Both the position numbers and the translations under genes were made by a program. A stretch of DNA of 64,000 bases from Allocoleopsis franciscana PCC 7113 (GTDB lineage: Bacteria; Cyanobacteriota; Cyanobacteriia; Cyanobacteriales; Coleofasciculaceae), in contig NC_019738.1 of assembly GCF_000317515.1 (NCBI RefSeq), positions 5,606,001 to 5,670,000 on the forward strand. Reading direction: 5' to 3'. The notes under the pieces are model-generated. The model worked only from the letters and a program-made list of their open reading frames with translations. It did no database searches and was not told the DNA's origin. This document shows, piece by piece, positions 11,687 to 64,000 of this stretch. The number at the start of each line of letters is the position of its first letter. Within the stretch, counting starts at the first letter, position 1.

Positions 11687-11760
<74 letters not shown>

Positions 11761-11804
11761 TTTACGTAATCATGCTGAAATTGATGATTGGTAAGGGTTT
11801 CAAG

Positions 11805-11870
11805 TGTCGATTGCCAAATTATTTGTCGTCGTTGTCAAATTAGTGTCATTTTGACAAATTGTTTGTCATC
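11805..11870 (+). repeat. CAST end, CRISPR side (terminal inverted repeat and TnsB-site motifs)
   Basis: The first 26 bases starting TGTCGATTGCCAAATTATTT are identical to the inverted opposite end. Further internal copies of the TTGTCAAATTA / TGACAAATT motif follow at about 11832-11848 and 11850-11868. This is the multi-site layout expected for TnsB binding at V-K ends. Confidence 0.9.
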
Positions 11871-11905
11871 GAGCTATAGCTTTTAAAGCAGCTATCTATA
11901 TATAG

Positions 11906-11936
11906 GGACACAACTGGACTCGCTTTCAACCCACCC
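11906..11936 (-). ncRNA. Delocalised homing crRNA: truncated repeat plus 17-nt tRNA-Val spacer
   Basis: On the minus strand, 11936-11923 reads GGGTGGGTTGAAAG, the 3' end of a V-K repeat. It is followed at once by a 17-base spacer (11922-11906) identical to the tRNA-Val 3' end. Shortened repeats with about 17-nt spacers against tRNA genes are the known chromosomal homing guides of V-K CASTs. Downstream bases (CTATATATAG...) do not match the tRNA, so the match ends at base 17. Confidence 0.9.
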
Positions 11937-12005
11937 TTTTCTAGAAATAGTTTTCGGCTTCTACGCTTTTTTCAACCCACCCCTAGGTGGGATGGTCGTT
12001 GAAAC
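11937..12005 (-). CRISPR. Minimal CRISPR array: one full 37-nt repeat and one 32-nt spacer
   Basis: The minus strand of 12005-11969 is a 37-nt repeat beginning GTTTCAACGACCATCCCACC and ending GGGTGGGTTGAAAA, closely resembling the ShCAST direct repeat as I recall it. A 32-nt spacer (11968-11937) follows, and then the truncated homing repeat. No second full repeat is present, so the array is reduced to one ordinary spacer plus the homing unit. The target of the ordinary spacer cannot be read from this window. Confidence 0.85.
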
Positions 12006-12149
12006 TCTTCCCACCTAGACCCTTGTCTACACTGCCCTTTCAGAAGCCTTTTTGACGGCTCCCGAAAATCCTTACTCAATCTCCTGGAAAACTAGAAGAT
12101 TGCTGGTTGCTGAAATTAGTGAAACCCAGATTAGACAAAGGTTTTGAAC

Positions 12150-12196
12150 TTTTGACGGTTCCCTGGGGATTTTGCCCCCGCTTTTAGCCGTCAAAA
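12150..12196 (-). terminator. Strong inverted repeat beyond the tracrRNA, likely terminator
   Basis: TTTTGACGGTT at 12150-12160 pairs with AGCCGTCAAAA at 12186-12196, with an inner G5/C4 stem. It lies just after the tracrRNA anti-repeat and is flanked by A/T runs on both sides. A tracrRNA terminator or processing hairpin is likely. A related TTTTTGACGGCTCC half occurs again at about 12049-12062. Confidence 0.55.
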
Positions 12197-12199
12197 AAT

Positions 12200-12424
12200 A
12201 TTTAGAGTGGATTCCTCCTTGCTCGGAGGTGATTGGGTAGCCACCACTGCGGAACCCGCACCCGTATTGCTGGGAGCGCACCTTATTCCTGTCCGAAGAC
12301 AGCAGCATCGGGGTGGGCAGCTACCAGGGTCAGAAAGCACAACTGTCTTCCAACAGTCAAACTAACCCTGATTTTTCACAGCTCAGCGGTTCGATTGAAC
12401 ATGAACTGCGGCGCTATTGCTTAT
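12200..12424 (-). ncRNA. V-K tracrRNA
   Basis: Downstream of cas12k on the same strand, this region carries blocks I recall from the ShCAST tracrRNA: AATAGCGCCGCAGTTCATG near the 5' end, then GGGTTAGTTTGACTGT, CTTTCTGACCCTGGTAGCTG, GATGCTGCTGTC and GGTGCGCTCCCAGCAATA. The anti-repeat AATCCACTC (12213-12205) can pair fully, with two G-U pairs, to GGGTGGGTT of the repeat. A possible promoter (TTGACC, 19-bp spacer, TAGAAT at 12436-12431) overlaps the end of cas12k. The ends are approximate. Confidence 0.88.
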
Positions 12425-12463
12425 TCAATTATTCTAATGTCAAGGTTCAAATATTGGTCAAAC

Positions 12464-14371
12464 TTAGGGGTTGAGACGGGAGTGATAAGCTGCGATCGCC
12501 ATTTCTTTTGCCTTTTCCTGGGGGCTGCCTCGGACAGGCTGTTGTCCTTGTTCGATTGAGATGCCTATCTTTGCTGCCTGAACCTGAATGTTCTCAATCA
12601 ATCTGCCGTAACTCCATTGATGAACATTAACCCGATACTGTTTGGCGTACTTTTGCTGTCCTTCGACATAACTGGGAATTTTTTGCTCAGCTCTAGTTTG
12701 AATCTCGCTGTGCACTAGCTCTCGCATATCTCCCAGCTTGGGAAGGACAATGCTGCCTGCCTGGTAGGTTTGAGCTAAGGTGACAATTTCTTTAGCCAAC
12801 AGTCGGTCTACATATTCCCCTAGCTCGGATTCCCCAAATTGATTAGAGGTAGCATTTTTCTGTGCTTTGTGGCGTTGGTGAGACTGGCGTTGTTTTTCTT
12901 GTCGTTGACGGTTGAAAAGTTTGTAGTTATCTCCGAGTAGTTGTCGGATGCTGCGGTAGGCGATCGCTTCGCCTGTAGTGCCATCTACGATCGCTGCTGT
13001 AGCGGGTTTCCCAAGGCCCAAGCTAATACCCACAGCAATGTGCGACCGCCCCTGATACAGAGGTTGGCTAGGACGAGGGAAGGGGTTATTGAGACGGGCG
13101 AGGGTGGAGTTTTTGCGCTTAATGAAAGCTTGTTGTTTGTCGTTAAGGTCGCCTTTCTCTTTCATTCTGGCAAGGGTTTTGGCGATATCATCGGCTTTCT
13201 CTTGACGCACTTGCTCAGTGCCTTCAGCCGTCCAAAGGCGAGTGTCTAGAGTGCAGTAGAGAGTCAGGTGATGGATGTTCCAAGCGTCGCCTTTTCCCTT
13301 CCCTAATGCCCAAGCAATCTGTCCTGAGCGCAGGGTAAACAAGCTACTGGAGTGCTGGTCTTTGCTCTCTCGCTTGATTTGTTGGTCTTCCAGGAAGCGT
13401 TGAAACCACTTGAGCTGGCGTTGGTCACAGTAGATTTGAAAGGTGTGTTCGCTCAAGCCGTTGAATTTTACGCAGAGGCGACCTTTGGAATTTTTGCTCC
13501 AGGTCAGGTCTTCGTTACTTTCATAAGTAACTGGAAAGGGGACAGACTGGGGTTTGGTTAAGAGCCTGTCTTGCCAAGAACGAGCTTGAGACTCATTTTC
13601 AGGGACGGTGCTAGTGGCAGCGATCAATGTCTCTAACCACTTTTCCCCGGTTAAGTTTCGACCTTTGGGAATACGGCTGGCTAGTTGTTCTTCTAACCTT
13701 GAAATCTTGATTTCAGTTTTGCGGCGGCGCTTGGCAAATTTTTCTTTGTCTTCCTCTTGGTCAGGAATTTTGCAGCCATTTTTGAGCAAGTAGCAGATGG
13801 CGTTCTTGGTCAGGAGGTCTTCTATATCGTCGTAAACCTGGAAGAGAGTTTTAGAGATACTGCGATTAGAGCCTAAGTCTTGGGGTTTCTTGCTCTTTTT
13901 GCCTTTGGTTTGAGTGGGTTGAGGCGACTCGTTCTTAGAGGTCAGGGGAACCAGGATTTCACTGGCTTTGGTGCGAATGACCTCTAGAGTACAACCGCTC
14001 TGGTTGACTAATTCCTCGTCGCTTTTGAGCATTCCTAACCAGCGCATCTGTCCCTCTAGTTTGCGCTGTAACCGTTGCTGCACCTTCAACCAAGATTTGT
14101 AGATGTAGTCTACCAGCGCGCTCGCAGAAGCATAAAAACGACCAGGCTGACCGATGAAGCGAGAATCAGTCCTGAGGGGTTCACACAGTTGTTTGATGAT
14201 GCCAGCAGGAATTTTGCGTTTTTGTCGCCAAGTCTCGAAATCAGGATGCTGACCGATTTGTTCGAGGAGTTCGTTAATTAGAGGCGTATTTCGTTCTGCC
14301 ATCAATGTCCAGATCTGGTGGCGAGTTGAAACGTTTGCAACTAGGCGGCATTGAATGGTGATTTGGCTCAT
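12464..14371 (-). CDS. cas12k: Cas12k, RNA-guided target selector of V-K CAST
   Basis: Cas12k binds the crRNA-tracrRNA and recognises a GTN PAM target without cutting, recruiting TniQ, TnsC and TnsB. The product is 635 residues, near the 639 of ShCas12k. It has a lysine-rich basic N-terminal half, and a degenerate RuvC-like core starts about residue 440 (HIAVGISLGLGKPATAAIVD). There the usual catalytic D of RuvC-I is replaced, as expected for this nuclease-dead family. The C-terminal RuvC relics include GSIVLPKLGDM and HQWSYGRLIENIQ. The ATG at 14371 lies 19 bases from the 28-bp operator-like motif and about 40 bases below a TATAAT. The tracrRNA follows directly. Identity rests on length, motifs and neighbourhood together. 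Confidence 0.95.
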   Translation of the reverse strand: MSQITIQCRLVANVSTRHQIWTLMAERNTPLINELLEQIGQHPDFETWRQKRKIPAGIIKQLCEPLRTDSRFIGQPGRFYASASALVDYIYKSWLKVQQRLQRKLEGQMRWLGMLKSDEELVNQSGCTLEVIRTKASEILVPLTSKNESPQPTQTKGKKSKKPQDLGSNRSISKTLFQVYDDIEDLLTKNAICYLLKNGCKIPDQEEDKEKFAKRRRKTEIKISRLEEQLASRIPKGRNLTGEKWLETLIAATSTVPENESQARSWQDRLLTKPQSVPFPVTYESNEDLTWSKNSKGRLCVKFNGLSEHTFQIYCDQRQLKWFQRFLEDQQIKRESKDQHSSSLFTLRSGQIAWALGKGKGDAWNIHHLTLYCTLDTRLWTAEGTEQVRQEKADDIAKTLARMKEKGDLNDKQQAFIKRKNSTLARLNNPFPRPSQPLYQGRSHIAVGISLGLGKPATAAIVDGTTGEAIAYRSIRQLLGDNYKLFNRQRQEKQRQSHQRHKAQKNATSNQFGESELGEYVDRLLAKEIVTLAQTYQAGSIVLPKLGDMRELVHSEIQTRAEQKIPSYVEGQQKYAKQYRVNVHQWSYGRLIENIQVQAAKIGISIEQGQQPVRGSPQEKAKEMAIAAYHSRLNP

Positions 14372-14389
14372 ACAGCGTAATGCTTTATT

Positions 14390-14417
14390 GGTTCAATAAA
14401 ACCATATGTGTATTATA
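14390..14417. promoter_or_regulatory. Likely CvkR operator / promoter between cas12k and cvkR
   Basis: This 28-bp motif (core CAATAAAACCATATGTGTA) shares 25 of 28 bases with the one before tnsB. On the minus strand it starts with TATAAT, a good -10 for cas12k. On the plus strand it contains TATTAT at 14411-14416, with TTGGTT 17 bp upstream, a possible cvkR promoter. A repressor bound here would cover both. Confidence 0.75.
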
Positions 14418-14441
14418 GCGGCCTTTGTAGAATCGTAATTG

Positions 14442-14870
14442 ATGCAAGAAACATTTTTTACGAGTAAACAGGCGGCTAAAATTACGGGCTGTACTCTCCG
14501 TCAGTTGCAATATTGGCGGGAGAAAGGGGTAGTTGTACCTGTAATTAGTGGAACTGGGACGGGACGGAGTCTTTATTACTCCCGGTCTGATTTGGTTGAG
14601 TTGGCGGTAATGGAATATTGGTTGAGTGTGGGATTGAGCTTTGATCTGGCGCGTCAATCTCTTAAGATGCTCAAGGACAAAGAGCCGGAGTTCTTTAATC
14701 CCGAAAAGGCAAGGCGTTGGATGTTGGCGTGGAATTCCAAGATGCGATCGCTTAAACTGTTGGAGTTTGATTTGGAAGACGCGATCGCGTCTCTGAAATC
14801 CGGTCAGCCTGTGATTCCCCTGTGGTTGGATGCGATTCATGAGGAGTTGACGAAAAGGTTGGTAGGGTAG
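14442..14870 (+). CDS. MerR-type regulator, CvkR-like repressor of the CAST
   Basis: A 142-residue protein with an N-terminal MerR winged helix-turn-helix (FTSKQAAKITGCTLRQLQYWREKGVVVPV). A wing follows (GRSLYYSRSDLVELAVMEYWLSVGLSFDLARQSLKML), and then a short C-terminal alpha-helical part with no metal-binding cysteines. Divergent MerR-type genes next to cas12k are the CvkR repressors of V-K CASTs, shown in Anabaena to repress CAST genes. I use the ATG at 14442, as a TTG lies one codon before it. The shared 28-bp motif upstream of cas12k and tnsB supports the same role here. It converges with the next gene, 23 bp away. Confidence 0.85.
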   Translation: MQETFFTSKQAAKITGCTLRQLQYWREKGVVVPVISGTGTGRSLYYSRSDLVELAVMEYWLSVGLSFDLARQSLKMLKDKEPEFFNPEKARRWMLAWNSKMRSLKLLEFDLEDAIASLKSGQPVIPLWLDAIHEELTKRLVG

Positions 14871-14893
14871 CTCATCGCAAATACTGGCGATAG

Positions 14894-16561
14894 TTATTGA
14901 TTAATCGATATCGATTGATGGAACCCATTCCCGTTCCCGTTTTTGTATTCCCTAGCCGAAGCCTCAAACGGTTCAACGTTCAAAGGCTTACCCATTGCGT
15001 TTCCGATCAAACTCATTAATGCCCTTGCCCGTGCAGCAAAAAATCCCTCAAAGTCATCTCGCCGCAGCATAGTTGGGTCAATAGCGTGCGATCGCAACAT
15101 ATCATTGAGTTTAGTAGGGAATATTCCTTCGCTCTCAAACTGTTTGAGGTAAAGCGAAGGGGGTTTGGAGCCGATTTTTTTGTTGGTACTGGCTGACAAG
15201 GGGGTGCGATTGACTAAGCAGTTGTAATATTTGGGTTCTATGCCTTGCTTTCTACACCAGGCAACAGGGAAGATGTGGTGCGATTCAACCCGTTGTTCAA
15301 AATAAAGTACATCGTTAATTTCTTCCCCCGTACTCCAATCAATTGCCCCTTGAAGCCGCAACAAAGCTGACAATCCTTGGTATACAGCACCGTAACGTTT
15401 TCTCACACCCAGCAGCCGATATACCGAAAAATCGGCAGAGGAAATAGTCGTTGGTGGTAAACCTCCTAACAGCCAGAAGGGAACTTCTAGTACGTCATGC
15501 GCTGCTCGCACTTCATGTCCACGGGTATACACTTCTCCAAACATCCCCGACCACAGCCAATGCCTTAATCGAGAACGAATCTGTTCGGATTCGGATTGCT
15601 TGCCCAGTAATGTTAAAATTGCCGTCAAAGCAACGAGCTGGATGGGGTAGGCTATGTCGATTGCGTCAAAGATTTTTTGAGAGTGCAGGAAGCGAGCCGC
15701 CTCTTCAAACCCTCTCATCACAGGGTCTGCCCATGTCTGGTATTCTTCGGGTGATACCTTTAAGGCTTCCATGCGCCGACAGCTAATCGCGGGTAACTTC
15801 TCACAATTCACATTTGCCAGGAGGGCTTTTTGGCGACGGGCATAAGAAGCTACCAAGCTAATGGCTTGAATAAAGTCAGTATTCCTCAAAGAACGTAAGA
15901 CTTTCAGGGACTTAAGGCGAGTCTCTCGACGCTTCCAATCATCTCTCAGGCTGAAGTTATCCGCACAGTAGCTAGCCGTCATGAGGTCGAAAAAATTCAG
16001 GTCGCATCCAGAAGTGTTGGTATCCTCGAAAACCTGGCAAACTGCCTCTTTTGGTAAAGACTCCCGCAGTTGAATGACGGGCATCTGGTAATGTTCAAAC
16101 TTTTTGAGGACTTCCAGCTCTAAGGTATCGAGGAGTTTGAGTTTTTCGCTATTGTATCCCCAAAATTTAGAGTATTTGCTTCTCCATTCCGAAAAAAAGA
16201 AGACTTTTGACAGGGGGAACAGTCCGATTAAATATTCTCGGCATGGCATAGAAATATCAATTACCCCATTAGATGTTTGGAGTTTTTTGGTTTCGGGTAG
16301 AGCAAGAATTGCTTCTCGGCGATCGCTATTTGGGTCGAGACATTTCTCAATATCCAGGTAGTACCATTTTTTGATGAGTTTTTGAGATTTTTGGTCTTTG
16401 ATGACAACAGGTTGCCCGGACAGTAACACCATAAATAGGGTGGTCAGGCGCTGCTGACCGTCGAGAATGAGTAAGTTAGGTGGTTGGGGTTCTGGTAGGG
16501 CGACACTATCGACAAGGCGGGGTTTGAATTGAACTTGATGGTTGCCTTGTTGGAGCATCAT
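14894..16561 (-). CDS. DUF262-DUF1524 (GmrSD-like) nuclease, probably 5'-truncated
   Basis: GmrSD-family proteins are type IV restriction-like enzymes against modified phage DNA. The N-terminal part holds the DUF262 motif ILDGQQRLTTLFMVLL at residues 32-47. The C-terminal HNH-like DUF1524 motif is ESHHIFPVAW near residue 430, followed by NCLVNRTPLSASTNKKIG. The only ATGs are at 16561 and 16558. In the same frame, upstream codons still encode VWDDSQIRRVLASVSLAYPI, which is conserved DUF262 sequence, until a TAG at 16634-16636. So the family's first tens of residues are missing or out of frame. It is probably inactive or decaying cargo, unless a non-standard start is used. Confidence 0.75.
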   Translation of the reverse strand: MMLQQGNHQVQFKPRLVDSVALPEPQPPNLLILDGQQRLTTLFMVLLSGQPVVIKDQKSQKLIKKWYYLDIEKCLDPNSDRREAILALPETKKLQTSNGVIDISMPCREYLIGLFPLSKVFFFSEWRSKYSKFWGYNSEKLKLLDTLELEVLKKFEHYQMPVIQLRESLPKEAVCQVFEDTNTSGCDLNFFDLMTASYCADNFSLRDDWKRRETRLKSLKVLRSLRNTDFIQAISLVASYARRQKALLANVNCEKLPAISCRRMEALKVSPEEYQTWADPVMRGFEEAARFLHSQKIFDAIDIAYPIQLVALTAILTLLGKQSESEQIRSRLRHWLWSGMFGEVYTRGHEVRAAHDVLEVPFWLLGGLPPTTISSADFSVYRLLGVRKRYGAVYQGLSALLRLQGAIDWSTGEEINDVLYFEQRVESHHIFPVAWCRKQGIEPKYYNCLVNRTPLSASTNKKIGSKPPSLYLKQFESEGIFPTKLNDMLRSHAIDPTMLRRDDFEGFFAARARALMSLIGNAMGKPLNVEPFEASAREYKNGNGNGFHQSISINQ

Positions 16562-16699
16562 GACAGCACCGATAGGGTATGCCAGAGAAACGCTAGCGAG
16601 GACGCGACGTATCTGGGAATCATCCCAAACAGACTACACCAATTCGTCTACAGGTTACATATGCCGCCTAAGCGAGTTGCAATTTATCAGTAAAGCGCT

Positions 16700-16933
16700 A
16701 TGGGCAAGAAAGGCAAAAAAAGTCGCAAGGGTGTTGGAGAAATGTATGACGAAGCTAAGGTAGATACGCTCCTGACTTTGACACCAACGGCGAGGAGTAA
16801 TTTAGACAAACAAGCCAAAGAGCTGGAAGTTAGCCGCAGTGAGGTAGTGGAACGCTTTGCCCGTGGTCTGCTCAATTCTCCAGGAGCAGTGGTACTTTCG
16901 GATGAGGAGAGGGCTGTCCTGGGAAAATCCTAA
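16700..16933 (+). CDS. Small ribbon-helix-helix-like protein
   Basis: A 77-residue basic protein. After a lysine-rich start comes VDTLLTLTPTARSNLDKQAK and ELEVSRSEVVERFARGLL, the strand-helix-helix rhythm of Arc/CopG-type DNA-binding proteins. Frame -1 from the GGGAAAA at about 16920-16926 continues as ILKQAIAQAQEELAGRGLFE and ends at a TGA near 17068. The present stop (16931-16933) may therefore result from a frameshift in a longer protein of about 120 residues. The role is unknown; it could be an antitoxin-like or regulatory cargo protein. Confidence 0.5.
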   Translation: MGKKGKKSRKGVGEMYDEAKVDTLLTLTPTARSNLDKQAKELEVSRSEVVERFARGLLNSPGAVVLSDEERAVLGKS

Positions 16934-17067
16934 AGCAGGCGATCGCTCAAGCACAGGAGGAACTGGCTGGGCGGGGTCTGTTTGAGGGTCAAAAAGCTTC
17001 TGGAGAGGAAGCGATTAATCTACAACAGCAGATTGACCAGTGGCAGTTGCTATTGGAGAAATTTGAT

Positions 17068-17499
17068 TGACTGTGGAGTGATTAGGTTGCTGGATGCGAT
17101 CGAAGCATCCAAGGGGCAGCTTCAAAATCAGGCGATCGCGCTTCAGATGTAGAACTCCAAAAACTTGCCCAACGGCTGGTTAAACCGGATGGTGAAGCGT
17201 GGGAGGAGGGGGAACTGGTGGATATTCGACTGGCTGAGGATTTGAAGCGGAGACGGCAGTAGAAGCGATCGCAAAAGTCAAAACGATAACTGAAAAGGCA
17301 AGTTTCAGCGATAGCGAACCGTAGAGTGTTCAGAATATAAGATATAAATTTATAAAATGCTACATTAATAAGTTTGCTCTATTTTTCCGTAGAGTTCAGA
17401 TTCTCTGATTGACGATAAGGTAAACTGATACCGAATTAGGTGTTTTTTGGAACATTTGTACTAAATAACATCGTCAAGACAAGCGACTCATCTCAGGTA
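17068..17499. other. Region between the small gene and hsdM, with coding remnants
   Basis: A plus-strand frame at about 17148-17262 encodes LQKLAQRLVKPDGEAWEEGE without a start codon and ends in a TAG. It is rich in GCGATCGC and looks like a gene remnant. After it comes AT-rich sequence that should hold the hsdM promoter. I cannot name a convincing -35/-10 pair. Confidence 0.35.
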
Positions 17500-19581
17500 A
17501 TGATGGCTGACCACCACCAACTCTCTAACTTCATCTGGCAAATTGCCGACTTGCTGCGGGGACCTTACCGCCCTCCGCAGTACGAGCGTGTGATGTTACC
17601 TATGACGGTGCTGCGTCGCTTCGATTGTGTGCTTGCACCCACAAAGCAGCAGGTGTTGGCGGAGGCAGCCAAGTGGGAAGAAAAATTTAAAGGGAATGAT
17701 GCCGCTCTTGACCCAATTCTGAATAAAGCGGTAGGTAAGGGTTTTCGTTTTCACAATCGCTCGCCCCTCGACTTTGAGAAACTCAAGGGCGACCCTGACA
17801 ATATTGATAAGCATCTCATCAGCTACATCGAGAGCTTCTCGAAGAATGTTCGAGATATCTTCGAGAAATTTGAGTTTACCAATGAAGTGGAGCGAATGCG
17901 TGAGGCAAACATCCTCTACCTCGTTGTCTCTAAGTTCTGTGACGTTGATCTACACCCTGGTACTGACGATGCCCCCAAGGTAGACAACATCGCGATGGGA
18001 TTGCTGTTCGAGGATTTGATTCGTCGGTTCAATGAAGCCGCCAACGAAACTGCTGGAGATCACTTTACGCCTCGCGAAGTAATTCGCCTGATGGTGGATA
18101 TTTTGTTTGACCCCGACGATGACATCCTGACCAAACCGGGGATTGTGAGTAAACTGCTTGACCCTGCCTGCGGTACGGGTGGGATGCTGGCTGAAGCACA
18201 AAATTATCTGCGGCGCGAATATAACTCAGAGGCTCGATTGTACGTGTATGGACAAGACTTTAACCCTCGTGCTTATGCTATTGCTGCTTCAGACTTGCTG
18301 ATGAAGGGTAATGAGAACAGTGCGATTCGCTTCGGTGACTCGCTCATCGATGATCAGTACCCGGATGATCGCTTCGACTACCTGCTGGCTAACCCGCCTT
18401 TTGGGGTGGACTGGAAGAAGCAACAGAAAGAGGTAAAACGCGAACACGAGAAACAGGGATTTGCTGGACGGTTTGGGGCTGGTTTGCCAAGGATTAATGA
18501 TGGTGCGCTGCTGTTTTTGCAGCACATGATCAGCAAGTTTGAACTCTATCAACCCACGCAGAATAAATTCGGTTCACGATTGGCAATTGTGTTTAATGGC
18601 TCACCTTTATTTACAGGGGGGGCGGGTAGTGGAGAAAGTGAGATTCGCAGGTGGATTATTGAAAATGACTGGCTGGAAGCTATTATTGCCCTGCCGGAGC
18701 AGATGTTTTACAACACGGGCATTGGTACCTATCTTTGGATCGTCACTAACCGTAAGCAATCCCACCGCAAGGGTAAGATTCAACTGATCGATGCCCGTGC
18801 CCGTTGGCAACCGATGCGCCGTAGCCTTGGTGATAAACGCCGCTACATGGGTGAGGACGACATTGCAGCAGTGGTGTGTGAGTACGGCAAGTTTGTGGAA
18901 ACAGAAACCAGCAAAATTTTCGATAATGAAGACTTTGGCTATAACCGTGTGCCGATTGAGCGCCCTTTGCGCTTGGTTTACCAGATGAACACAGATCGTA
19001 AGAGCCGTTTTCTGGATGCGGTGCCCCATTTGCTGGACGATGTGCAGGCAATTGACAGAGAGCTAGGACGAGAACCACGAGAAGACTGGAGTGAGTTTGA
19101 TCGGCTAATGAAAAAGTTGCTCAAACAACGGGAGAGCAGGTGGAAAAATCCAGAACGCAAGCTCTTCCGTGATGTCTTTACCGAACGTGACCCAGAAGCT
19201 AAGCCAGTTATTCTCGATCAACGGGAGGCGAAGGGCGACCCCAATGCTCGTATTTGGGGTTGGTTTCCGGTACCCAATCGCAAATTGGAGCGGATGTATG
19301 AGCCAGATTCGCAACTCCGGGATTTTGAAAATGTGCGCTTGGTAGATACAGAAAACCCAGAGAAAAATGAGAAAGAAATTATTCACTACTTCTGTCATGA
19401 GGTAGAGCCACACTTATCGGATTCATGGGCAGATAAACAGAAAATTCGTAGTGCCTATGAAATTAACTTCAATCGGCATTTTTATAAGTACACGCCGCCC
19501 CGGTCGCTAGAGGACATTGATGCGGATATTAAGAAAATGGAGGCGGAAATTATCCGTTTGCTTCATGAAGTAACGTCATGA
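17500..19581 (+). CDS. hsdM: Type I restriction-modification methyltransferase subunit
   Basis: HsdM makes N6-methyladenine marks as part of the HsdM2S complex and of the HsdR-containing restriction enzyme. An N-terminal HsdM_N helical domain (LSNFIWQIADLLRGPYRPPQY) leads into the N6-adenine methylase. SAM-binding motif I is DPACGTGGML near residue 221, and catalytic motif IV is NPPFG near 298. Another family-typical block is GDHFTPREVIRLMV. I choose the ATG at 17500 (693 residues), because the longer frame starts at a GTG (17440) with non-conserved residues. Its stop overlaps the hsdS start by 4 bases (ATGA). It is the first gene of a five-gene coupled operon. Confidence 0.95.
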   Translation: MMADHHQLSNFIWQIADLLRGPYRPPQYERVMLPMTVLRRFDCVLAPTKQQVLAEAAKWEEKFKGNDAALDPILNKAVGKGFRFHNRSPLDFEKLKGDPDNIDKHLISYIESFSKNVRDIFEKFEFTNEVERMREANILYLVVSKFCDVDLHPGTDDAPKVDNIAMGLLFEDLIRRFNEAANETAGDHFTPREVIRLMVDILFDPDDDILTKPGIVSKLLDPACGTGGMLAEAQNYLRREYNSEARLYVYGQDFNPRAYAIAASDLLMKGNENSAIRFGDSLIDDQYPDDRFDYLLANPPFGVDWKKQQKEVKREHEKQGFAGRFGAGLPRINDGALLFLQHMISKFELYQPTQNKFGSRLAIVFNGSPLFTGGAGSGESEIRRWIIENDWLEAIIALPEQMFYNTGIGTYLWIVTNRKQSHRKGKIQLIDARARWQPMRRSLGDKRRYMGEDDIAAVVCEYGKFVETETSKIFDNEDFGYNRVPIERPLRLVYQMNTDRKSRFLDAVPHLLDDVQAIDRELGREPREDWSEFDRLMKKLLKQRESRWKNPERKLFRDVFTERDPEAKPVILDQREAKGDPNARIWGWFPVPNRKLERMYEPDSQLRDFENVRLVDTENPEKNEKEIIHYFCHEVEPHLSDSWADKQKIRSAYEINFNRHFYKYTPPRSLEDIDADIKKMEAEIIRLLHEVTS

Positions 19582-20966
19582 GCGATGAATCGCAAACGCT
19601 TACAAAAGTGTTCAATAGTTCCGCTACTGCCTACGATTCTGTTATTAATTGGGTAGAAACAATTCCATCCCATTGGTCAATTGAACTTCTTAAATTCCAT
19701 CTTTTGGGAATTGAACAAGGCTGGTCACCACAAAGCGATAACTTTCCAGCCGATGAAAATGAGTGGGGTGTGCTTAAAGTCGGTGCGGTCAATGGATGGG
19801 AATTTAATCCAAATGAGAATAAACGTCTTCCCGCTGATTTGGAGCCGCTGACTGAGTATGAAATTAAACCTGGAGATTTACTCGTAAGTCGGGCTAACAC
19901 TCCTGAACTAGTGGGCAGTGCCGCATTGGTTAAGCAAGTTCGCCCTAAGTTGTTGCTCTGCGACAAATTGTATCGCCTGAAAATAAACTGTAGGACACTC
20001 TGCCCAGAATACCTTGTATTTTATTTGCGTTCGCCAGTTGCACGTTACGAATTTGAGCGTGACGCAACAGGCGCTAGCAGTTCTATGCAAAATATTTCAC
20101 AAGAATCAGTAAAAAATCTTTTCATTCCAGTTCCACCAGTTACTGAACAACGCAAGATTGCATCTTACGTCGATCGCCAAACCGCCAAAATCGACACCCT
20201 CATCACTGCCAAACAACGCCTCCTCGAACTCCTCACCGAGAAACGTCGCTCTCTCATCACCCACGCCGTCACCCGTGGGCTAAATCCTGATGCTCCCCTG
20301 CGCGATTCGGGAATTGAATGGTTGGGTGAGATTCCCGCACATTGGAATATTGAACGGCTTCGGTGGTTTATTAAAACTCTTGAACAAGGTTGGAGTCCTC
20401 AAGCAGAAGAACGAGAACCGGGACAAGAGGAATGGGGAGTTTTGAAATTGAACGCTGTTAAAGATGGGCAGTTCGATCCATCTAAAGCTAAAGCTCTTCC
20501 TGCATCTATAGAAATTCCAGTCTCCTTGGAAATTCGTTCGGGTGACTTTTTAATAACACGAGCTAATACACCTGAGCTAGTTGGAGATATCTGCTATGTT
20601 CATGAAACCAGATCTCAACTTATACTGAGTGACTTAATTTACCGTTTACGACTTGATGAATCAAAGCTTGATGGTAAATTTTTAAGTTACTTTCTGCAAG
20701 CTCCAAGTGGACGACTACAAATTGAGGCAGATGCTAGAGGTTCTAGTGCATCTATGGTTAAGATTTCTCAGGGACACATCCTAGACTGGTTATTGATTTT
20801 GCCTCCCTTGAGTGAACAACAGGCGATCGTTGCTTATATAGAGTCCGAAATCTCTAAACTCGCTAATCTAAAAGAAGCCACTGAGCATACTATGGAACTC
20901 TTGCAAGAGCGACGTGTTGCTCTCATCTCAGCCGCAGTCACTGGACAGATTCGTATCTCAGCCTAG
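19578..20966 (+). CDS. hsdS: Type I restriction-modification specificity subunit
   Basis: HsdS holds two target recognition domains (TRDs) that read the two half-sites, separated by coiled-coil spacers. TRD1 covers about residues 25-190 and TRD2 about 245-405, with helical spacers after each (IASYVDRQTAKIDTLITAKQ; IVAYIESEISKLANLKEA). The two TRDs resemble each other closely: EQGWSPQ, EWGVLK, LP and RANTPELVG recur at the same places in both. The half-sites are therefore probably similar, giving a near-palindromic bipartite target. At 462 residues it is a usual length. It overlaps hsdM by 4 bases and ends 2 bases before the next gene. Confidence 0.94.
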   Translation: MSDESQTLTKVFNSSATAYDSVINWVETIPSHWSIELLKFHLLGIEQGWSPQSDNFPADENEWGVLKVGAVNGWEFNPNENKRLPADLEPLTEYEIKPGDLLVSRANTPELVGSAALVKQVRPKLLLCDKLYRLKINCRTLCPEYLVFYLRSPVARYEFERDATGASSSMQNISQESVKNLFIPVPPVTEQRKIASYVDRQTAKIDTLITAKQRLLELLTEKRRSLITHAVTRGLNPDAPLRDSGIEWLGEIPAHWNIERLRWFIKTLEQGWSPQAEEREPGQEEWGVLKLNAVKDGQFDPSKAKALPASIEIPVSLEIRSGDFLITRANTPELVGDICYVHETRSQLILSDLIYRLRLDESKLDGKFLSYFLQAPSGRLQIEADARGSSASMVKISQGHILDWLLILPPLSEQQAIVAYIESEISKLANLKEATEHTMELLQERRVALISAAVTGQIRISA

Positions 20967-20968
20967 AC

Positions 20969-22234
20969 ATGCAACTCAACCGCCTCACCCTCACCCAGTT
21001 CCGCGCTTTCGAGCAGGCAGACTTTGATTTTCATCCAGGGATGAATCTGATCGTTGGCATTAATGGTGTAGGCAAGTCTTCTGTACTGGATGCTCTTCGG
21101 ATTATGTTGTCACAGGTACTACCAAAATTCACAGCATCCAAAAGTAAGCCTCTCGACTTCGAGACAACCGATATTACAGTTGGGCGTGGTGCCCTCACTG
21201 CCGAACTTGAATTCAACGCAGCAGAGATTGACTTCCAATACCTCGTACATAAACCACGCCAAGATTATGTAATCGACATTAGCCGAGAAGGAGAAGTTCG
21301 TGACCAAACCTATAATTTGGTTGAACGGCAAGATTTGACTCCGGATGAGAAGGAAATTCCAAAGAGTCTTAAAACTCGACGGGAACAACCTCTTGTAGTG
21401 TATTTCTCAACGCGCCGCTCTTTATATAGTATGGCTGCACCTTCTAAGCAATTTACAGCAGGTGGTCAGGCAGTTGCCTTTGCTGATGCTCTAAAGGGTG
21501 ATCGTGAACTGCGTCCGCGTGAGTTCGCTGAGTGGTGGTTGGTACAGGAGGTGCTTATCCAAGAAGGTAAAACAGAGGCACAACGGTATTTTGATACATT
21601 TGAGAGCTTAGTGAGATATTTTCTTGAAAACTGCTCCAATTTACGTGCCGTCAGAGAACCACAAGTTACTCTAATGCTTAATAAAGCAGGGGTATCATTT
21701 GATGTGCGTCAGTTATCAGATGGAGAACGTGGCATTCTGGCATTGGTGCTTGACTTAGCAAGACGCCTTTCATGGGCTAATCCTAAGCTAGACGACCCTT
21801 TACAGAAGGGTAAGGCTATTGTACTCATTGATGAACTTGACCTGCACTTACATCCCCGTTGGCAACGCTCAATTGTAGAAAAATTGACTCGAACGTTTCA
21901 GAGTTGTCAATTCATTGCTACGACCCACTCACCACAGATCATTGGTGAGGTGTCACCTGAAAATATCCTAATTCTTGAAAATGGTGAGCTTCCATACCAA
22001 CCAGAACAATCGCTTGGTATGGATAGTAATTGGGTGCTGAGCTATCTAATGGAGGCTTCTGAGCGTGATATAGAAACCAAACAAAAATTAAAACGTATCG
22101 CTGACCTGATTGAAGATGAGGAGTATGACAGGGCGACTGATGCAATCGATGATTTACGAGTAGAGGTTGGTGAATTCCCAGAATTAGTACGTTTGCAAAC
22201 ACGCATTGATAGGATACGTTTGCTAGGGGATTAG
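20969..22234 (+). CDS. SMC/ABC-like AAA ATPase, Septu PtuA-like
   Basis: A 421-residue ATPase of the AAA_21/SMC-like kind. Walker A is GINGVGKS at residues 30-37, the ABC signature-like LSDGERGILALVLDLA is near 250, Walker B IVLIDELDLHLHP is near 285, and the switch H is in FIATTHSPQIIGE. There is no Toprim domain, so it is not an OLD nuclease. It is followed with no gap by a TIGR02646-type HNH gene, the arrangement of Septu (PtuA ATPase plus PtuB nuclease), also found as effector of retron Ec78. It starts 2 bases after hsdS, so it is cotranscribed with the restriction-modification genes. Plain anti-phage 'AAA' cargo of another type is the alternative. Confidence 0.82.
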   Translation: MQLNRLTLTQFRAFEQADFDFHPGMNLIVGINGVGKSSVLDALRIMLSQVLPKFTASKSKPLDFETTDITVGRGALTAELEFNAAEIDFQYLVHKPRQDYVIDISREGEVRDQTYNLVERQDLTPDEKEIPKSLKTRREQPLVVYFSTRRSLYSMAAPSKQFTAGGQAVAFADALKGDRELRPREFAEWWLVQEVLIQEGKTEAQRYFDTFESLVRYFLENCSNLRAVREPQVTLMLNKAGVSFDVRQLSDGERGILALVLDLARRLSWANPKLDDPLQKGKAIVLIDELDLHLHPRWQRSIVEKLTRTFQSCQFIATTHSPQIIGEVSPENILILENGELPYQPEQSLGMDSNWVLSYLMEASERDIETKQKLKRIADLIEDEEYDRATDAIDDLRVEVGEFPELVRLQTRIDRIRLLGD

Positions 22235-22954
22235 ATGAAATACATCCGCAAAGGTTCTGGACCAAGAGAACTGCGTCAGTGGTTCAGGACTCTACCACTA
22301 AATGAAAATGGCAAGCCAATTAATTGCCGCTACGATGATGACATTTACCAAGATTTAAAAGAAAAAATTATCAAGGCTCTGCTAGAGGAACAAGGGTACT
22401 TGTGCTGCTATACGGGTATCCGTATCTCGGAAGAAAATACCCATATTGAACATTTGAAACCACAGAGTATTTCACAGCAGGATGAGAACGATCACGATGA
22501 TGTGATGTACAGTAATATGCTAGCAGCCTATCCCAAAGGTGATTGCCAATTTGGCGCTCAAGCAAGGGGTGATTGGTACGAGCTTGACTTCTTTATTCAT
22601 CCACTAGATGGTTCGTGTGAAACAAAATTCCACTTTGATATGGAAGGAGGTATTAAACCTGTTTCACAAACTGATCTTGCTGCAAAAAAAACCATTGCCC
22701 ACCTAAAGCTTGCCCACCCTTTGCTAGTGGATCTGAGAAAGCAGGCAATTGACGAACTTTTATTTCCTGAAGATGAGGTCTTAAGCGAAGCCAAATTACG
22801 AAGAATTGTTGAAAACGGTTACAGCATCCGTGACAAGAAGGGACGATACCCTCATTTCTGTTTCATAATCGAGCAGGTTGCACGACAACTTTTGCACAAG
22901 GTCGAACAAGATCGTAAACGTAGGCAGGCTATTCACAAGCAAAAGCGCAAATGA
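22235..22954 (+). CDS. HNH endonuclease, Septu PtuB-like (TIGR02646-type)
   Basis: A 239-residue protein with the TIGR02646 layout. The N-terminus is MKYIRKGSGPRELRQW. The CCYTG motif at residues 57-61 is followed by the HNH-type HIEHLKPQ at 70-77 and the YSNMLAAYP block at 92-100, which supplies the N of the nuclease. The C-terminal half is helical and basic. In Septu, PtuB is the DNA-cutting subunit held by the PtuA ATPase. The ATG directly abuts the ptuA stop, and its TGA overlaps the hsdR ATG (ATGA), so expression is tightly coupled to both neighbours. Confidence 0.85.
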   Translation: MKYIRKGSGPRELRQWFRTLPLNENGKPINCRYDDDIYQDLKEKIIKALLEEQGYLCCYTGIRISEENTHIEHLKPQSISQQDENDHDDVMYSNMLAAYPKGDCQFGAQARGDWYELDFFIHPLDGSCETKFHFDMEGGIKPVSQTDLAAKKTIAHLKLAHPLLVDLRKQAIDELLFPEDEVLSEAKLRRIVENGYSIRDKKGRYPHFCFIIEQVARQLLHKVEQDRKRRQAIHKQKRK

Positions 22955-25900
22955 TATCTAATTCCTCTGCTTCTCGTCATAGTGAAGCCGCTTTCGAGAG
23001 TGTGATTGAGGAGCATCTATTAGCGCATGGCTATGTTAGAGTCAACAGCCAGTTTGATCGCACCCGTGCCATTTTTCCTGATGAAGCAATCAACTTCATC
23101 CGCACGACCCAACCAAAAGAGTGGGCAAAGCTAGAGGCACTCCACGGAGAGAATACCGCCACGCAAATTCTTACTGACCTGTGTAAGTGGATGGATGCCT
23201 ATGGTTCCCTCCACACCCTACGCCACGGCTTCAAATGTTATGGGCGTACCCTGCGGATTGCCTACTTCAAAGCCGCGCACGGTCTAAATCCTGGCTTAGA
23301 AGCACGCTACGCTACTAACTGTGTCGGCATCACTCGCCAACTTCATTACAGCGATCGCGATCCTGCCAAATCCCTTGATGTTACCCTCAGTCTCAACGGC
23401 ATCCCAATCGCCACCTTAGAACTGAAGAACCCGCTAACCGGACAGACATTTGAGAATGCCAAACAGCAGTATCGCAAAGACCGTGACCCTCGTGAACCTG
23501 TCTTTGAATTCAAGCGGCGAACTCTAGTCCATTTTGCAGTTGATACCGAAGAGGTATGGATGACAACCCGCTTGGCAAGTGATGCAACTCACTTTCTGCC
23601 GTTTAACCAGGGTTGTGAAGGTGGAGCAGGTAATCCATCAGATCCAAATGGGCGCACTTATCGCACTGCCTATCTTTGGGAGGAAGTTTTACAGCGAGAT
23701 AGCTTACTCGATTTGCTTGCCCGCTTCCTACATCTGCAAATAGAAGAAAAGCACGACGACGACGGGCGAAAGTTCAAAAAGGAGAGCATGATCTTTCCCC
23801 GCTACCATCAGCTTCAGGCAGTACGGCGGCTAACTGACGCGGCAAGACGTGAAGGAGTGGGGCACAACTATCTCATTGAGCATTCCGCAGGCAGTGGCAA
23901 GAGTAATACCATCGGTTGGCTAACTCACCGTCTTGCCTCCCTGCATGATGACCAAGATCGTCGAGTTTTCGATAGCGTCATTGTCATTACCGATCGCCGC
24001 GTACTCGATCAACAATTGCAGGACACTATCTATCAATTCGAGCATCGCCAGGGAGTCGTGCAGAAAATCGACGAAGACTCACGGCAGCTAGCTCAAGCGC
24101 TCGAAAGTGCTGTTCCGATTATTATCACCACACTACAGAAATTCCCCTTTGTCTCTAGACAGTTACTCAAACTCACTGAAGAGCGCAACGAACAGGGACG
24201 CGGAGTACTACCCACCCGTCGCTGTGCTGTCATCATCGACGAAGCCCATAGCTCTCAATCCGGTGAAACGGCAACCGAGCTAAAAGGGATACTGGGTGGT
24301 GAAGATTTGCAGGAAGAAGCTCGAAAACGCGCTCAAGAAGAAGGGCTGGAAAACCAAGAAGAACTTTTTCGTAGCATGGCGAAGCGTGCTCGTCAGGCGA
24401 ACCTGAGTTTCTTCGCATTCACGGCTACACCCAAGCATAAAACACTCAAAGTCTTCAGTGACAATGGCAAGCCGTTCCATCGCTACACCATGCGACAGGC
24501 AATCGAAGAAGGCTTCATCATGGACGTACTCCACAACTACACCACTTACAAATCCTATTACCAGTTGATCAAAGCCTGTAAAAACGATCCTAATGTAGAG
24601 CGCAAGAACGCTGCTCGTGCCTTGGCTCGCTTCATGCGCCTCCATCCTCACAATATTGCCCAGAAGACAGAAGTAATGGTTGAACACTTCAACACCTTCT
24701 CGCGGCACAAAATTGGTGGACGAGCTAAAGCAATGGTCGTGACTGGCTCTCGTCTTGAGGCAGTGCGTTATAAACAGAGCTTTGACAAATACATCAAAGA
24801 GAAGGGTTATCCCATCAAGACGTTGGTTGCCTTCTCAGGTGTAGTGACAGACGACAAAATCAAGGACAAGACCTACAGCGAAGAAGCAATGAACCAGGGC
24901 ATTCGTGAGCGTGAACTGCCGGAGCGTTTTGCCACCAATGAGTATCAGGTTTTGCTCGTCGCTGAGAAATATCAAACTGGTTTCGATCAACCCCTGCTAC
25001 ATACCATGTATGTGGATAGACGACTAGCAGGCATCCAGGCAGTACAGACCCTTTCCCGTCTCAATCGCACTCATCCCCAGAAAGAAGACACGTTCGTCTT
25101 AGATTTCATCAATGATCGCGAAGAGATTCGAGAAGCGTTTCAGCAATTCTATGAAGGTGCCGAAATAGGAGAAGAAGCTAAACCTGAGCAGCTCTATCAA
25201 CTCCAGGCGGAACTCGACGCCCAAGGGATTTATCTGCAAGAAGAGATTGAGTATTTTTGTCAAATCTACTTCAAACCGAAGCAACGCCAAAGTGTTTCTG
25301 ACCATCAAGCGATGAACGCAGCACTCGATCCAGCCGTTGATCGATTCCGTTCTTTGTATGCAGACAACCCAGAAGAAGCTGAGGTATGGCGTAGGAAAGT
25401 AGCAGCCTTTCGCAATCTTTACTCCTTCCTCAGCCAGATCATTCCCTATCAAGATTCAGACTTAGAGCGGCTCTACATCTTTTTGCGCCACCTATCGCCT
25501 AAACTCCCTCGTCATAAGAACGAAGCCCAGTACGATTTTGATAGCGATATCCAGCTTGAGTATTACCGTCTTCAGAAGATTAGCGAAGGCTCGATTGTTC
25601 TGAGGAAAGGTTACAGCCAGCCTCTAGACGGACCCAAAGCAGTTGGTACTGGTGTTGTCCGTGAAAGCCCTGTCAAACTCTCGCAACTGATTGACACAAT
25701 CAATAGTCGTTTTGGCACCGATTTTAATCAGGCAGATCAACTCTTTTTTGATCAAATAGTGGAGGCTGCTGCAAATTCCGAGGAGCTACAACAAGCGGCA
25801 CAAGTCAACTCAGCCGACAAGTTCGCCTTGCTTTTCAATCAGATGCTGGAGTCTCTTTTTGTCGAGCGTGTAGATCAAAACGAAACGATTTTTGCACGAT

Positions 25901-25998
25901 ATATGAATGATCGCGATTTTCAGAAAGTGGTGTCCGACTGGCTAGTCTCCGAAGTGTATCAGCGTCTCATTGGCAACAAACCACCTACGATGAAGTAA
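22951..25998 (+). CDS. hsdR: Type I restriction enzyme R subunit
   Basis: HsdR adds ATP-dependent translocation and cleavage to the HsdM/HsdS complex. The N-terminal PD-(D/E)xK nuclease shows D143 and ELK at 157-159 (in SLDVTLSLNGIPIATLELKN). The SF2 motor has Walker A (HSAGSGKSN, about 311-319), DEAH (IIDEAHSSQSG, about 428), motif III (FFAFTATPK) and motif VI (QAVQTLSRLNRT). At 1015 residues it is full length, and all catalytic motifs look intact. It is the last gene of the operon, overlapping ptuB by 4 bases. Confidence 0.95.
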   Translation: MISNSSASRHSEAAFESVIEEHLLAHGYVRVNSQFDRTRAIFPDEAINFIRTTQPKEWAKLEALHGENTATQILTDLCKWMDAYGSLHTLRHGFKCYGRTLRIAYFKAAHGLNPGLEARYATNCVGITRQLHYSDRDPAKSLDVTLSLNGIPIATLELKNPLTGQTFENAKQQYRKDRDPREPVFEFKRRTLVHFAVDTEEVWMTTRLASDATHFLPFNQGCEGGAGNPSDPNGRTYRTAYLWEEVLQRDSLLDLLARFLHLQIEEKHDDDGRKFKKESMIFPRYHQLQAVRRLTDAARREGVGHNYLIEHSAGSGKSNTIGWLTHRLASLHDDQDRRVFDSVIVITDRRVLDQQLQDTIYQFEHRQGVVQKIDEDSRQLAQALESAVPIIITTLQKFPFVSRQLLKLTEERNEQGRGVLPTRRCAVIIDEAHSSQSGETATELKGILGGEDLQEEARKRAQEEGLENQEELFRSMAKRARQANLSFFAFTATPKHKTLKVFSDNGKPFHRYTMRQAIEEGFIMDVLHNYTTYKSYYQLIKACKNDPNVERKNAARALARFMRLHPHNIAQKTEVMVEHFNTFSRHKIGGRAKAMVVTGSRLEAVRYKQSFDKYIKEKGYPIKTLVAFSGVVTDDKIKDKTYSEEAMNQGIRERELPERFATNEYQVLLVAEKYQTGFDQPLLHTMYVDRRLAGIQAVQTLSRLNRTHPQKEDTFVLDFINDREEIREAFQQFYEGAEIGEEAKPEQLYQLQAELDAQGIYLQEEIEYFCQIYFKPKQRQSVSDHQAMNAALDPAVDRFRSLYADNPEEAEVWRRKVAAFRNLYSFLSQIIPYQDSDLERLYIFLRHLSPKLPRHKNEAQYDFDSDIQLEYYRLQKISEGSIVLRKGYSQPLDGPKAVGTGVVRESPVKLSQLIDTINSRFGTDFNQADQLFFDQIVEAAANSEELQQAAQVNSADKFALLFNQMLESLFVERVDQNETIFARYMNDRDFQKVVSDWLVSEVYQRLIGNKPPTMK

Positions 25999-26107
25999 GG
26001 TCAGTAGGTCGAGGCAGCAGCATCACCACCATCTTAGTCGGCACTAGGGCTTCCTATGCCTCAATCTGCTGCTATAGTTGCTGGATGTGATCGCCTTAGA
26101 TATGTGA

Positions 26108-26527
26108 TTATGGAGTTTCAAGGACAGCAGTTGTTATCTGCTTCACAGTCTTTGCCCAGCTCTTAGCTCTATAACCTCCCATCAGAAGCCAACGAATCCA
26201 TTCAATCGAAGGATGTTCTGCGTTTCTCCACCCTGGCGCTCTTTGATCGAATTCGTTATTCTCAAAAAAATCCAATATTTCATCAATATCTTTGAGAGTT
26301 AATGGGCTTGCCTGAGCAAGAGCTTGAGGTAGCCTAAATTTTTCCCTACCTCCATACTTCTCGTATAGATAGATTCCTAACTGCGCCTCCTTCTTTACTG
26401 ACACTGGAGGAATTAACCTAACTTCTTCCTCTTGGCTGCCGTTTGCTTCTTCCTGCTTACGACTGGCGAGTAACAGCATCAAGGAGAGGGCTGCAATGTG
26501 GATTTTAACACTACTAGATGCAAGCAT
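26108..26527 (-). CDS. Hypothetical protein (CAST cargo)
   Basis: I do not recognise this 139-residue protein. It opens with a short hydrophobic stretch (IHIAALSLMLLLAS), which could be a weak membrane segment or signal. A charged KQEEANGSQEEE linker follows, and then a helical part with LTLKDIDEILDFFENNEFD and IEWIRWLLMGGYRAKSWAK. It lies on the strand of the tns genes but is separated from tniQ by a decayed fragment, and it converges with hsdR. Nothing ties it to transposition. Confidence 0.5.
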   Translation of the reverse strand: MLASSSVKIHIAALSLMLLLASRKQEEANGSQEEEVRLIPPVSVKKEAQLGIYLYEKYGGREKFRLPQALAQASPLTLKDIDEILDFFENNEFDQRAPGWRNAEHPSIEWIRWLLMGGYRAKSWAKTVKQITTAVLETP

Positions 26528-26572
26528 TTTAGCTACCGGGATGAGGGTTCAAAGAACATAACGTAAGCGAAA

Positions 26573-26720
26573 CTAAGCTCTACGGGACTTCTGTCGTTTC
26601 GCCATCCTAGCAAACGGCAGAAAACAATGGGGACACTCTCCTTCCACCCATAACGCAGGAATTGGGAATGGAGTCTCACAGTTAATGCATTTCCCTAACA
26701 AGCGCAACTGATGGCGATGC
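26573..26720 (-). pseudogene. Remnant of a second tniQ (C-terminal zinc-ribbon part)
   Basis: Read on the minus strand from about 26720, this gives HRHQLRLLGKCINCETPFPI then PALWVEGECPHCFLPFARM and a stop at 26573. It aligns with the C-terminus of the intact TniQ (DRHQLHLHTECPNCKAKFKI...), with 25 of 43 positions identical, including all four cysteines in this part. No start or N-terminal part is present. It lies directly downstream of tniQ. It is a diverged relic of another TniQ, not a recent copy. Confidence 0.8.
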
Positions 26721-26793
26721 CGAAGGCGGTTCGCTATGCGACCATCGCATCCAGAGCGTTGTAGTTATTGATACTTACCTAAAAAGTGCAAAG

Positions 26794-27300
26794 TTAGTAT
26801 GGCTTCTGATACTCCGCCATCTGAGCAAACGTCATAAAGCACCGATGGCAATGTCCATCCACCCACAAAGCCGGAATCTTGAACTTTGCCTTACAGTTTG
26901 GACATTCTGTGTGTAAGTGCAACTGATGGCGATCGCATACTAGCGCCGTCTTAAACTGCCACTCTATCCGATGACAAGGCACTTGAGCATAACAAGCCCC
27001 ACATAACCGAATTGGCTGATGCTTCAACCCCACCCCCTGAGGTGGCAGCATCTTCCTCAACCGTTCCGCATCCACCTGCACCACCGCTGCTAATGCCTCC
27101 AATTCCTGTCGAGAAGGAAACGGATTGAGGTAAAATTTCTCCCACCGTGCCACCACCGCCCCAATCCCCGCCTCTCTACCCAACCCACTGGGAGACAGTT
27201 CATTTTCCCGTCGAAACCGCCCCAGAAAATGACTCAGACTTTCCCCCTCATAAGGTTCTACCAAAAACAACCAAGGTTGAATCTCCCGGCTTTCGCTCAT
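26794..27300 (-). CDS. tniQ: TniQ, target-adaptor protein of the CAST
   Basis: TniQ joins the Cas12k-RNA complex to the TnsC filament. The 168-residue length equals the short TniQ of V-K systems (about 167). The N-terminal part carries the TniQ signature PWLFLVEPYEGESLSHFLGR and FRRENELSPSGLGREAG. The C-terminal half has zinc-binding CxxC pairs: LCGACYAQVPCHR, TECPNCKAKF, and GHCHRCFMTF. The ATG at 27300 overlaps the tnsC stop by 4 bases, so it is translated from the tnsBC transcript. Confidence 0.95.
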   Translation of the reverse strand: MSESREIQPWLFLVEPYEGESLSHFLGRFRRENELSPSGLGREAGIGAVVARWEKFYLNPFPSRQELEALAAVVQVDAERLRKMLPPQGVGLKHQPIRLCGACYAQVPCHRIEWQFKTALVCDRHQLHLHTECPNCKAKFKIPALWVDGHCHRCFMTFAQMAEYQKPY

Positions 27301-28133: not shown

Positions 28134-28135
28134 CC

Positions 28136-29800: not shown

Positions 29801-29812
29801 TTTTAATATATA

Positions 29813-29840
29813 TGTTCAATAAAAACATATGTGTATAATA
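29813..29840. promoter_or_regulatory. Likely CvkR operator / promoter of tnsB
   Basis: This 28-bp motif (core CAATAAAAACATATGTGTA) differs at only three positions from the one before cas12k and has the same orientation and distance to its gene. On the minus strand it starts TATTATAC, a candidate -10. The palindrome ACATATGT in its middle fits a dimeric MerR-type protein. Confidence 0.75.
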
Positions 29841-29847
29841 CTAAAAA

Positions 29848-30064
29848 TGACAGATAATTTGACAAACTTATAAAAAAGTTTGATTCAAAAATCCGACAAA
29901 TAATTTGGCAAATATCTGAGATGAGACACTTAATTTGTCAATGAGGTGTTCAACAGATTTAGGCAGACTAAAAAGCCTATAATCTGTATCTAGAAACGAT
30001 TACACGCTCTTGATGTATCGCGACAATTATTTTGACAAGACGACAAATAATTTGGCAATCGACA
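29848..30064 (-). repeat. CAST end, tnsB side, with multiple TnsB-site motifs
   Basis: The outermost 26 bases (30064 inward) are the exact inverse of the other end. Related TGACAAATTA-like motifs recur at 30021-30038, 29923-29942, 29893-29913 and 29848-29866. The more spread-out motif array is typical of the tnsB-side end. A TATAATCTGTAT-like stretch lies near 29978-29989. Confidence 0.88.
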
Positions 30065-30605
30065 AGTGGAGTGAGTAGTCCAGCAGTAGTATTCCCAGAA
30101 TCTCCGCGCTTATAGATCGGAGAGTTTCAAAAGAATTTAAAGGCTTCACCATCGCCTGTACTAGTGGCGATAGGCTACAGTAATTGTTACAGATTGTCAT
30201 ATAAGAGTTAAATTCGGCTTCAGTATGGGCGCAAGGAAGCGATCGCCAACCCATCTCCAAAAATGTAAGAAGAAGAAAATGAGATGTGCGATCGCTGCCA
30301 ATTGTTCCTGTAAAACGTAAGTTTTATGAAAATCACATAATGCTTTGAGGAGAATAAAAAGCCTTGATGAATTCTCCCGAAATTACTTGCTGTCCCTGTA
30401 AGAAGTAGCATAATGAATTCAAGTTCATCCTACCGAACTACCGAGTGACTAGAGCATTCCTTCTTCTAATAGGATGAGTCTTCAAAAAACCTCATTCGCA
30501 TCTGCCACAAAACCTACTTGCTCTACACAATGCGTTACGTATTGCAGTTACTTAACTCATCGAACGCTTTCCACCGTTTAACTATCAATTTTTGAGGCAG
30601 AACAA
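30065..30605. other. Flank beyond the transposon, no gene seen
   Basis: About 540 bases contain only short frames. There is no tRNA fragment and no copy of the left flank TCAAG next to the end. GCGATCGC-type sites occur. The right edge leads to the small gene at 30606. Confidence 0.4.
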
Positions 30606-63858: not shown

Positions 63859-64000
63859 CTGAGTTGACTACCCCTCGCTCCAAGAAGGATAGTCTCTAAC
63901 TTTCGCGCTCTGCGCTTCACTCTTCTCGCTTCGCTATTGTCAATTGGTGTTTTTCTGTTAAACACATCGCGATGCCTTTTTCATAGTAAGCGGCCTCATT

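Follow-up and report, generated by a model that had tools for sequence, protein, structure and literature searches.

A 17-nt anchor spacer identical to part of tRNA-Val(GAC) in a type V-K CAST of Allocoleopsis franciscana PCC 7113

The 64,000-nucleotide stretch of Allocoleopsis franciscana PCC 7113 DNA that we analyzed (the window; positions below are counted along it) contains an intact type V-K CAST of 18,260 bp (11805-30064). Near its CRISPR-proximal end lies the pair of features that marks an anchor in such systems, a truncated repeat followed by a spacer of ~17 nt identical to a protospacer in the flanking DNA, here within a tRNA-Val(GAC) gene. We are nearly certain that this 17-nt spacer is the homing (anchor) guide of the element. 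The match, the PAM, the offset, the transposon ends, and the gene set can be read directly in the window, and the arrangement recurs in independent insertions. The interpretation offered in an earlier note on this DNA is thus supported, now also by the anatomy of the element and by its relatives. The guide is an ordinary example of a published design, the anchor spacer with truncated repeat (PMC9938897; PMC11406308), and not a discovery; PMC11406308 also cites a preprint by Hsieh and Peters and Saito et al. 2021 for it. The value of the window is that it provides a clean, complete natural case of RNA-guided homing.

Guide, target, and offset at tRNA-Val(GAC)

As the earlier note had claimed, the spacer (GGACACAACTGGACTCG in the forward reading of 11906-11922) matches bases 11743-11759 of the tRNA gene exactly in reverse complement. 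The protospacer reads CGAGTCCAGTTGTGTCC, its inverted copy occupies 11906-11922, and on the 3' side the identity between the two extends no further than 17 nt. Across the 7.97-Mb genome, this 17-mer has only two copies, one in tRNA-Val(GAC) and one in the spacer. The note was also right that GTT precedes the protospacer, which fits a GTN PAM, and that the element starts 62 bp past it, its first TGT being at 11805. While 62 lies inside the 60- to 66-bp window that had been given for V-K systems, that window, reportedly the experimental value for ShCAST, is narrower than the natural range. Natural V-K elements combine a GTN PAM with a PAM-to-end distance of 46 to 82 nt (PMC9938897), and the median in our own survey was 59 bp, so the offset seen here is ordinary.

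Both a tracrRNA region and a CRISPR array are found downstream of cas12k (Table 1). According to duplex prediction, the truncated repeat (R*) retains the repeat portion that pairs with the anti-repeat. A short crRNA from this locus would read R* plus CGAGUCCAGUUGUGUCC, and such an RNA is probably made. Using 11805-12463 as a query and counting any match at E <= 0.001, we found a homologous region in 137 of 389 genomes of the order. The 32-nt array spacer had no protospacer in viral contigs by exact search, and its plasmid matches were noise only.

In V-K systems, Cas12k with crRNA and tracrRNA binds a GTN-flanked target, TniQ and TnsC come next, and TnsB inserts the element ~60 bp downstream; the tRNA survives (PMC9938897, PMC11406308). 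Applied to the window, R* and the 17-nt spacer would yield a short crRNA that pairs with the tracrRNA and loads nuclease-dead Cas12k, which would then bind the GTT-flanked T-arm of tRNA-Val(GAC). TniQ and TnsC would be recruited, and TnsB would join the transposon ~60 bp downstream without disrupting the tRNA gene. The insertion in the window was probably directed by this guide, and the element is probably still active.

Element anatomy and known systems

Table 1. Features of the V-K CAST and its attachment site in the window.
Feature	Positions	Strand	Evidence or remark
tRNA-Val(GAC), attachment gene	11687..11760	+	ARAGORN; Rfam RF00005, 69.6 bits
PAM GTT	11740..11742	+	Sequence; GTN in 42/42 surveyed anchors
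17-nt protospacer, T-arm/acceptor 3' side of tRNA gene	11743..11759	+	17/17 identity to spacer
Host DNA, protospacer to element	11760..11804	.	Sister genome G001 aligns to about 11790
CRISPR-proximal transposon end TGTCGATTGCCAAATTATTTGTCG	11805..11828	+	Perfect 24-nt inverted copy at far end
17-nt anchor (homing) spacer	11906..11922	-	17/17 identity to protospacer; 2 genome copies
Truncated repeat R* GGGTGGGTTGAAAG, 14 nt	11923..11936	-	13/14 nt equal the full repeat's 3' end; direct repeat D2
Sole full-length array spacer, 32 nt	11937..11968	-	Between R* and full repeat
Only full 37-nt CRISPR repeat	11969..12005	-	Rfam CRISPR-DR15, 49 bits
tracrRNA region, CCCACCCC anti-repeat to repeat and R*	12006..12463	-	Duplex prediction
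cas12k, 635 aa	12464..14371	-	NF038191 V_Cas12k 1011 bits (cut-off 150); ShCas12k PDB structures E 4e-285
25-nt motif, cas12k/merR promoter copy, candidate CvkR operator	14392..14416	+	0 expected in shuffles
MerR-family regulator, CvkR-like by position	14439..14870	+	PF13411; position as in PMC9938897
Defense cargo as a whole	14894..25998	.	Pfam, PADLOC
GmrSD-like protein (cargo)	14894-16561	-	Pfam, PADLOC
HsdM (cargo)	from 17440	+	Pfam, PADLOC
HsdS (cargo)	from 19578	+	Pfam, PADLOC
PtuA (cargo)	from 20969	+	Pfam, PADLOC
PtuB (cargo)	from 22235	+	Pfam, PADLOC
HsdR (cargo)	22951-25998	+	Pfam, PADLOC
tniQ, 168 aa	26794..27300	-	PF06527
tnsC, 281 aa	27297..28142	-	PF05621 TniB
tnsB, 554 aa	28136..29800	-	Mu-transpos_C; ShCAST TnsB structures E 7e-258
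25-nt motif, tnsB promoter copy	29815..29839	+	
tnsB-proximal transposon end, perfect inverted repeat	30041..30064	-	

The element is bounded by TGT...ACA inverted ends that agree at 24/24 positions, with TnsB repeats at both ends, and the 24-nt end motif has no further copy in the genome within 3 mismatches. The CRISPR-proximal end is the RE in ShCAST usage. The same end is named "left end" in PMC9938897. The transposition genes comprise tnsB, tnsC, and a short tniQ, and tnsA is absent: no TnsA match was found among the element's larger ORFs that were scanned. Within the cargo, PtuA and PtuB sit between HsdS and HsdR of a type I restriction operon (17440-25998). A 25-nt motif (TTCAATAAAANCATATGTGTATNAT) has only two copies in the window, one before cas12k/merR and one before tnsB. 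CvkR reportedly binds these two promoters (PMC9938897), which agrees with where the motif occurs. The letters of the motif differ from the published CvkR consensus, and we regard the motif as a candidate CvkR operator.

We found no essential difference from V-K anchor systems already described. Shared features include a 17-nt spacer after a stub of ~12 nt by the CRISPR-proximal end, the GTN PAM, a tRNA-gene protospacer that points toward the element, an offset within the natural range, a MerR gene divergent from cas12k, and the order tnsB-tnsC-tniQ-cargo-cas12k-tracrRNA-array-R*. The array in the window is minimal, with one full repeat, one spacer, and R*. Compared with ShCAST from Scytonema hofmannii, Cas12k and TnsB align near full length and insertion likewise lands some 60 bp beyond a GTN PAM, whereas the attachment gene and the cargo differ. 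The end sequence in the window is TGTCGATTGCC, as opposed to the TGTACAGTGAC type of ShCAST. A tRNA-Val homing site is also known from a type I-B2 CAST, PmcCAST, for which a tRNA-Val target has been used experimentally (PMC10293859); an element of this kind in the sister genome is described below. Unlike the window element, a type I-B2 CAST has its site chosen by a TnsD protein and not by an RNA guide, and it carries a TnsAB fusion and Cascade genes.

Anchors in relatives and in other Cas12k loci

To place the window among other V-K elements, we scanned named genome contigs and obtained 80 Cas12k loci, of which 64 with at least 1,500 nt of downstream sequence were kept. An anchor was called when the sequence after a stub ending in GAAAG matched nearby inverted DNA for 14 nt or more; no PAM was required. 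A stub and anchor were present in 42 of the 64 other loci, and this GAAAG-stub rule detected none in the remaining 22. All 42 anchors had a GTN PAM (GTA 20, GTT 11, GTG 11; expectation, 1/16 each), nearly all targeted tRNA genes, and the match was exactly 17 nt in 26. The offset had a median of 59 bp and fell between 58 and 64 bp in 27 of 41 anchors. For the Kamptonema locus L073 it is uncertain because there are two candidate ends, at 43 or 63 bp. As a null, matches in direct orientation numbered four, three of which contained CRISPR-repeat sequence.

Where tRNA-Val differs between hosts, the guide co-varies with the tRNA-Val of its own host: it is CGAGTCCAGTTGTGTCC in the window, CGAGTCCTGTTGTGTCC in Kamptonema, and CGAATCCAGTTACGTCC in Nostocales, each identical to the local gene. 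The earlier note had proposed a comparison with other CASTs at tRNA-Val(GAC), and that comparison bore it out, with the same T-arm guide and similar offsets. In a genome from another family (G454), the stub, guide, and target are identical and the offset is 61 bp; the flanks and the end sequence differ. In a genome from another genus (G019), the end sequence of the window element recurs with 99% identity across 91 nt and lies 63 bp beyond the same PAM. There, the DNA between the PAM and the transposon end is unrelated to that of the window, which points to an independent insertion. The G019 contig stops soon past the transposon end, before the guide position. A search for the rest of that element found no V-K TnsB, apart from one weak 36% match elsewhere. 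In another genome (G575, locus L255, C63:125584-125608), a guide of the CGAGTCCTGTTGTGTCC family adjoins tRNA-Val and has no exact target nearby, possibly a case of guide-target mismatch.

Despite the exact match, it could be argued that a piece of intergenic DNA resembles a tRNA gene by chance, since the match is only 17 nt long. The chance of an inverted match of this length is ~1e-6 (~2e4 position pairs over ~200 bp x 4^-17), an estimate taken before a repeat stub, orientation, PAM, and offset are required. Together with the two sole genomic copies and the recurrence of this layout at 42 other loci, this makes coincidence a negligible explanation, one that the Cas12k-locus survey refutes.

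Alternatively, the element could have arrived by another route (through an array spacer, by untargeted transposition, or by recombination). Its guide would then be a later copy of the local tRNA that marks the site but had no part in the insertion. Such copying predicts, just as homing does, that every guide matches the tRNA of its own site, including in hosts whose tRNAs differ; V-K attachment sites are known to shift even among close relatives (PMC11406308), and the far flank in the window is not a clean insertion product. What separates the two accounts is the geometry: a fixed offset of 58 to 64 bp with a GTN PAM is predicted by guided insertion but not by post hoc copying. In addition, two lineages with different ends share an identical guide at an identical site. 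We therefore consider arrival by another route very improbable and favor the anchor spacer as the homing guide. Distinct CAST lineages use one and the same 17-nt guide at this tRNA-Val, a gene that in the sister species holds a type I-B CAST.

Shared attachment sites and the far junction

The same genome contains a second V-K CAST (L002/L064; G000 C1 4021458-4023353), with guide GCGCACTTCGTTCGGGA. It targets tRNA-Pro(CGG) with a 17/17 match, a GTA PAM, and an offset of 62 bp, its Cas12k is 47% identical to that of the window element, and it has no target-site duplication. In the sister genome G001, a type I-B CAST occupies the same tRNA-Val(GAC) (L062/L063; C1 about 352.7-377.6 kb), so two CAST types use one attachment gene within the genus. 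That element encodes a TnsAB fusion, TniQ, Cas6/8/7/5, and a TnsD-like TniQ; its end lies 50 bp beyond the position that corresponds to the PAM in the window, and a target-site duplication is absent. G001 also holds its own V-K CAST at tRNA-Phe. A joined-flank query for an empty site found none in 20 genomes of the family. Relatives other than G001 mostly diverge just past the tRNA, and because G001, the nearest relative, carries a different CAST at the same tRNA, no empty site can be demonstrated.

The earlier note had concluded that the element documents its own arrival. This holds for the CRISPR-proximal side; the far junction lacks the 5-bp target-site duplication (TCAAG at 11800-11804 versus AGTGG at 30065-30069), so arrival is recorded on one side only. 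The sequence CAAGTG happens to span both junctions. Such a duplication is expected of a fresh insertion and does not define the family. In a small sample of 16 V-K elements delimited by ends matching at 19/24 positions or better, only one (in G370) had a duplication; it was absent from the window element and from 14 of the 15 others. A simple composite element was also considered and is unsupported, since a search up to position 64000 gave no further far end in which ACA is followed by TCAAG.

In several genomes, the tnsB-side end of the CAST nearest the tRNA abuts another CAST-type end with 0 to 2 bp between them (L266/L265 in G425, L239/L240 in G639, and L254 in G096), and abutting ends also occur at the less well delimited L229 (G399) and L257/L258 (G188). 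These abutting ends suggest that CASTs stack at a single attachment site and do so without producing the duplication that would be expected. Insertion keeps the protospacer and PAM intact, and the tRNA site thus remains targetable. It is conceivable, though we think it rather unlikely, that V-K elements, which lack TnsA and are replicative, repeatedly stack, recombine, or delete adjacent DNA at the tRNA site and that the window element is one product. If true, such turnover would explain both the missing far-flank duplications (15/16) and the abutting CAST ends. The full-text literature that we searched, itself incomplete, yielded no report or explanation of either observation. The missing duplications at natural V-K sites raise a testable question, namely what becomes of such a site once an element without TnsA has inserted and the target is preserved, and together with the stacked ends they are the part of our findings that deserves follow-up. 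In G096, the same guide is repeated 9.4 kb away, where the distant copy adjoins an apparent end of an older element.
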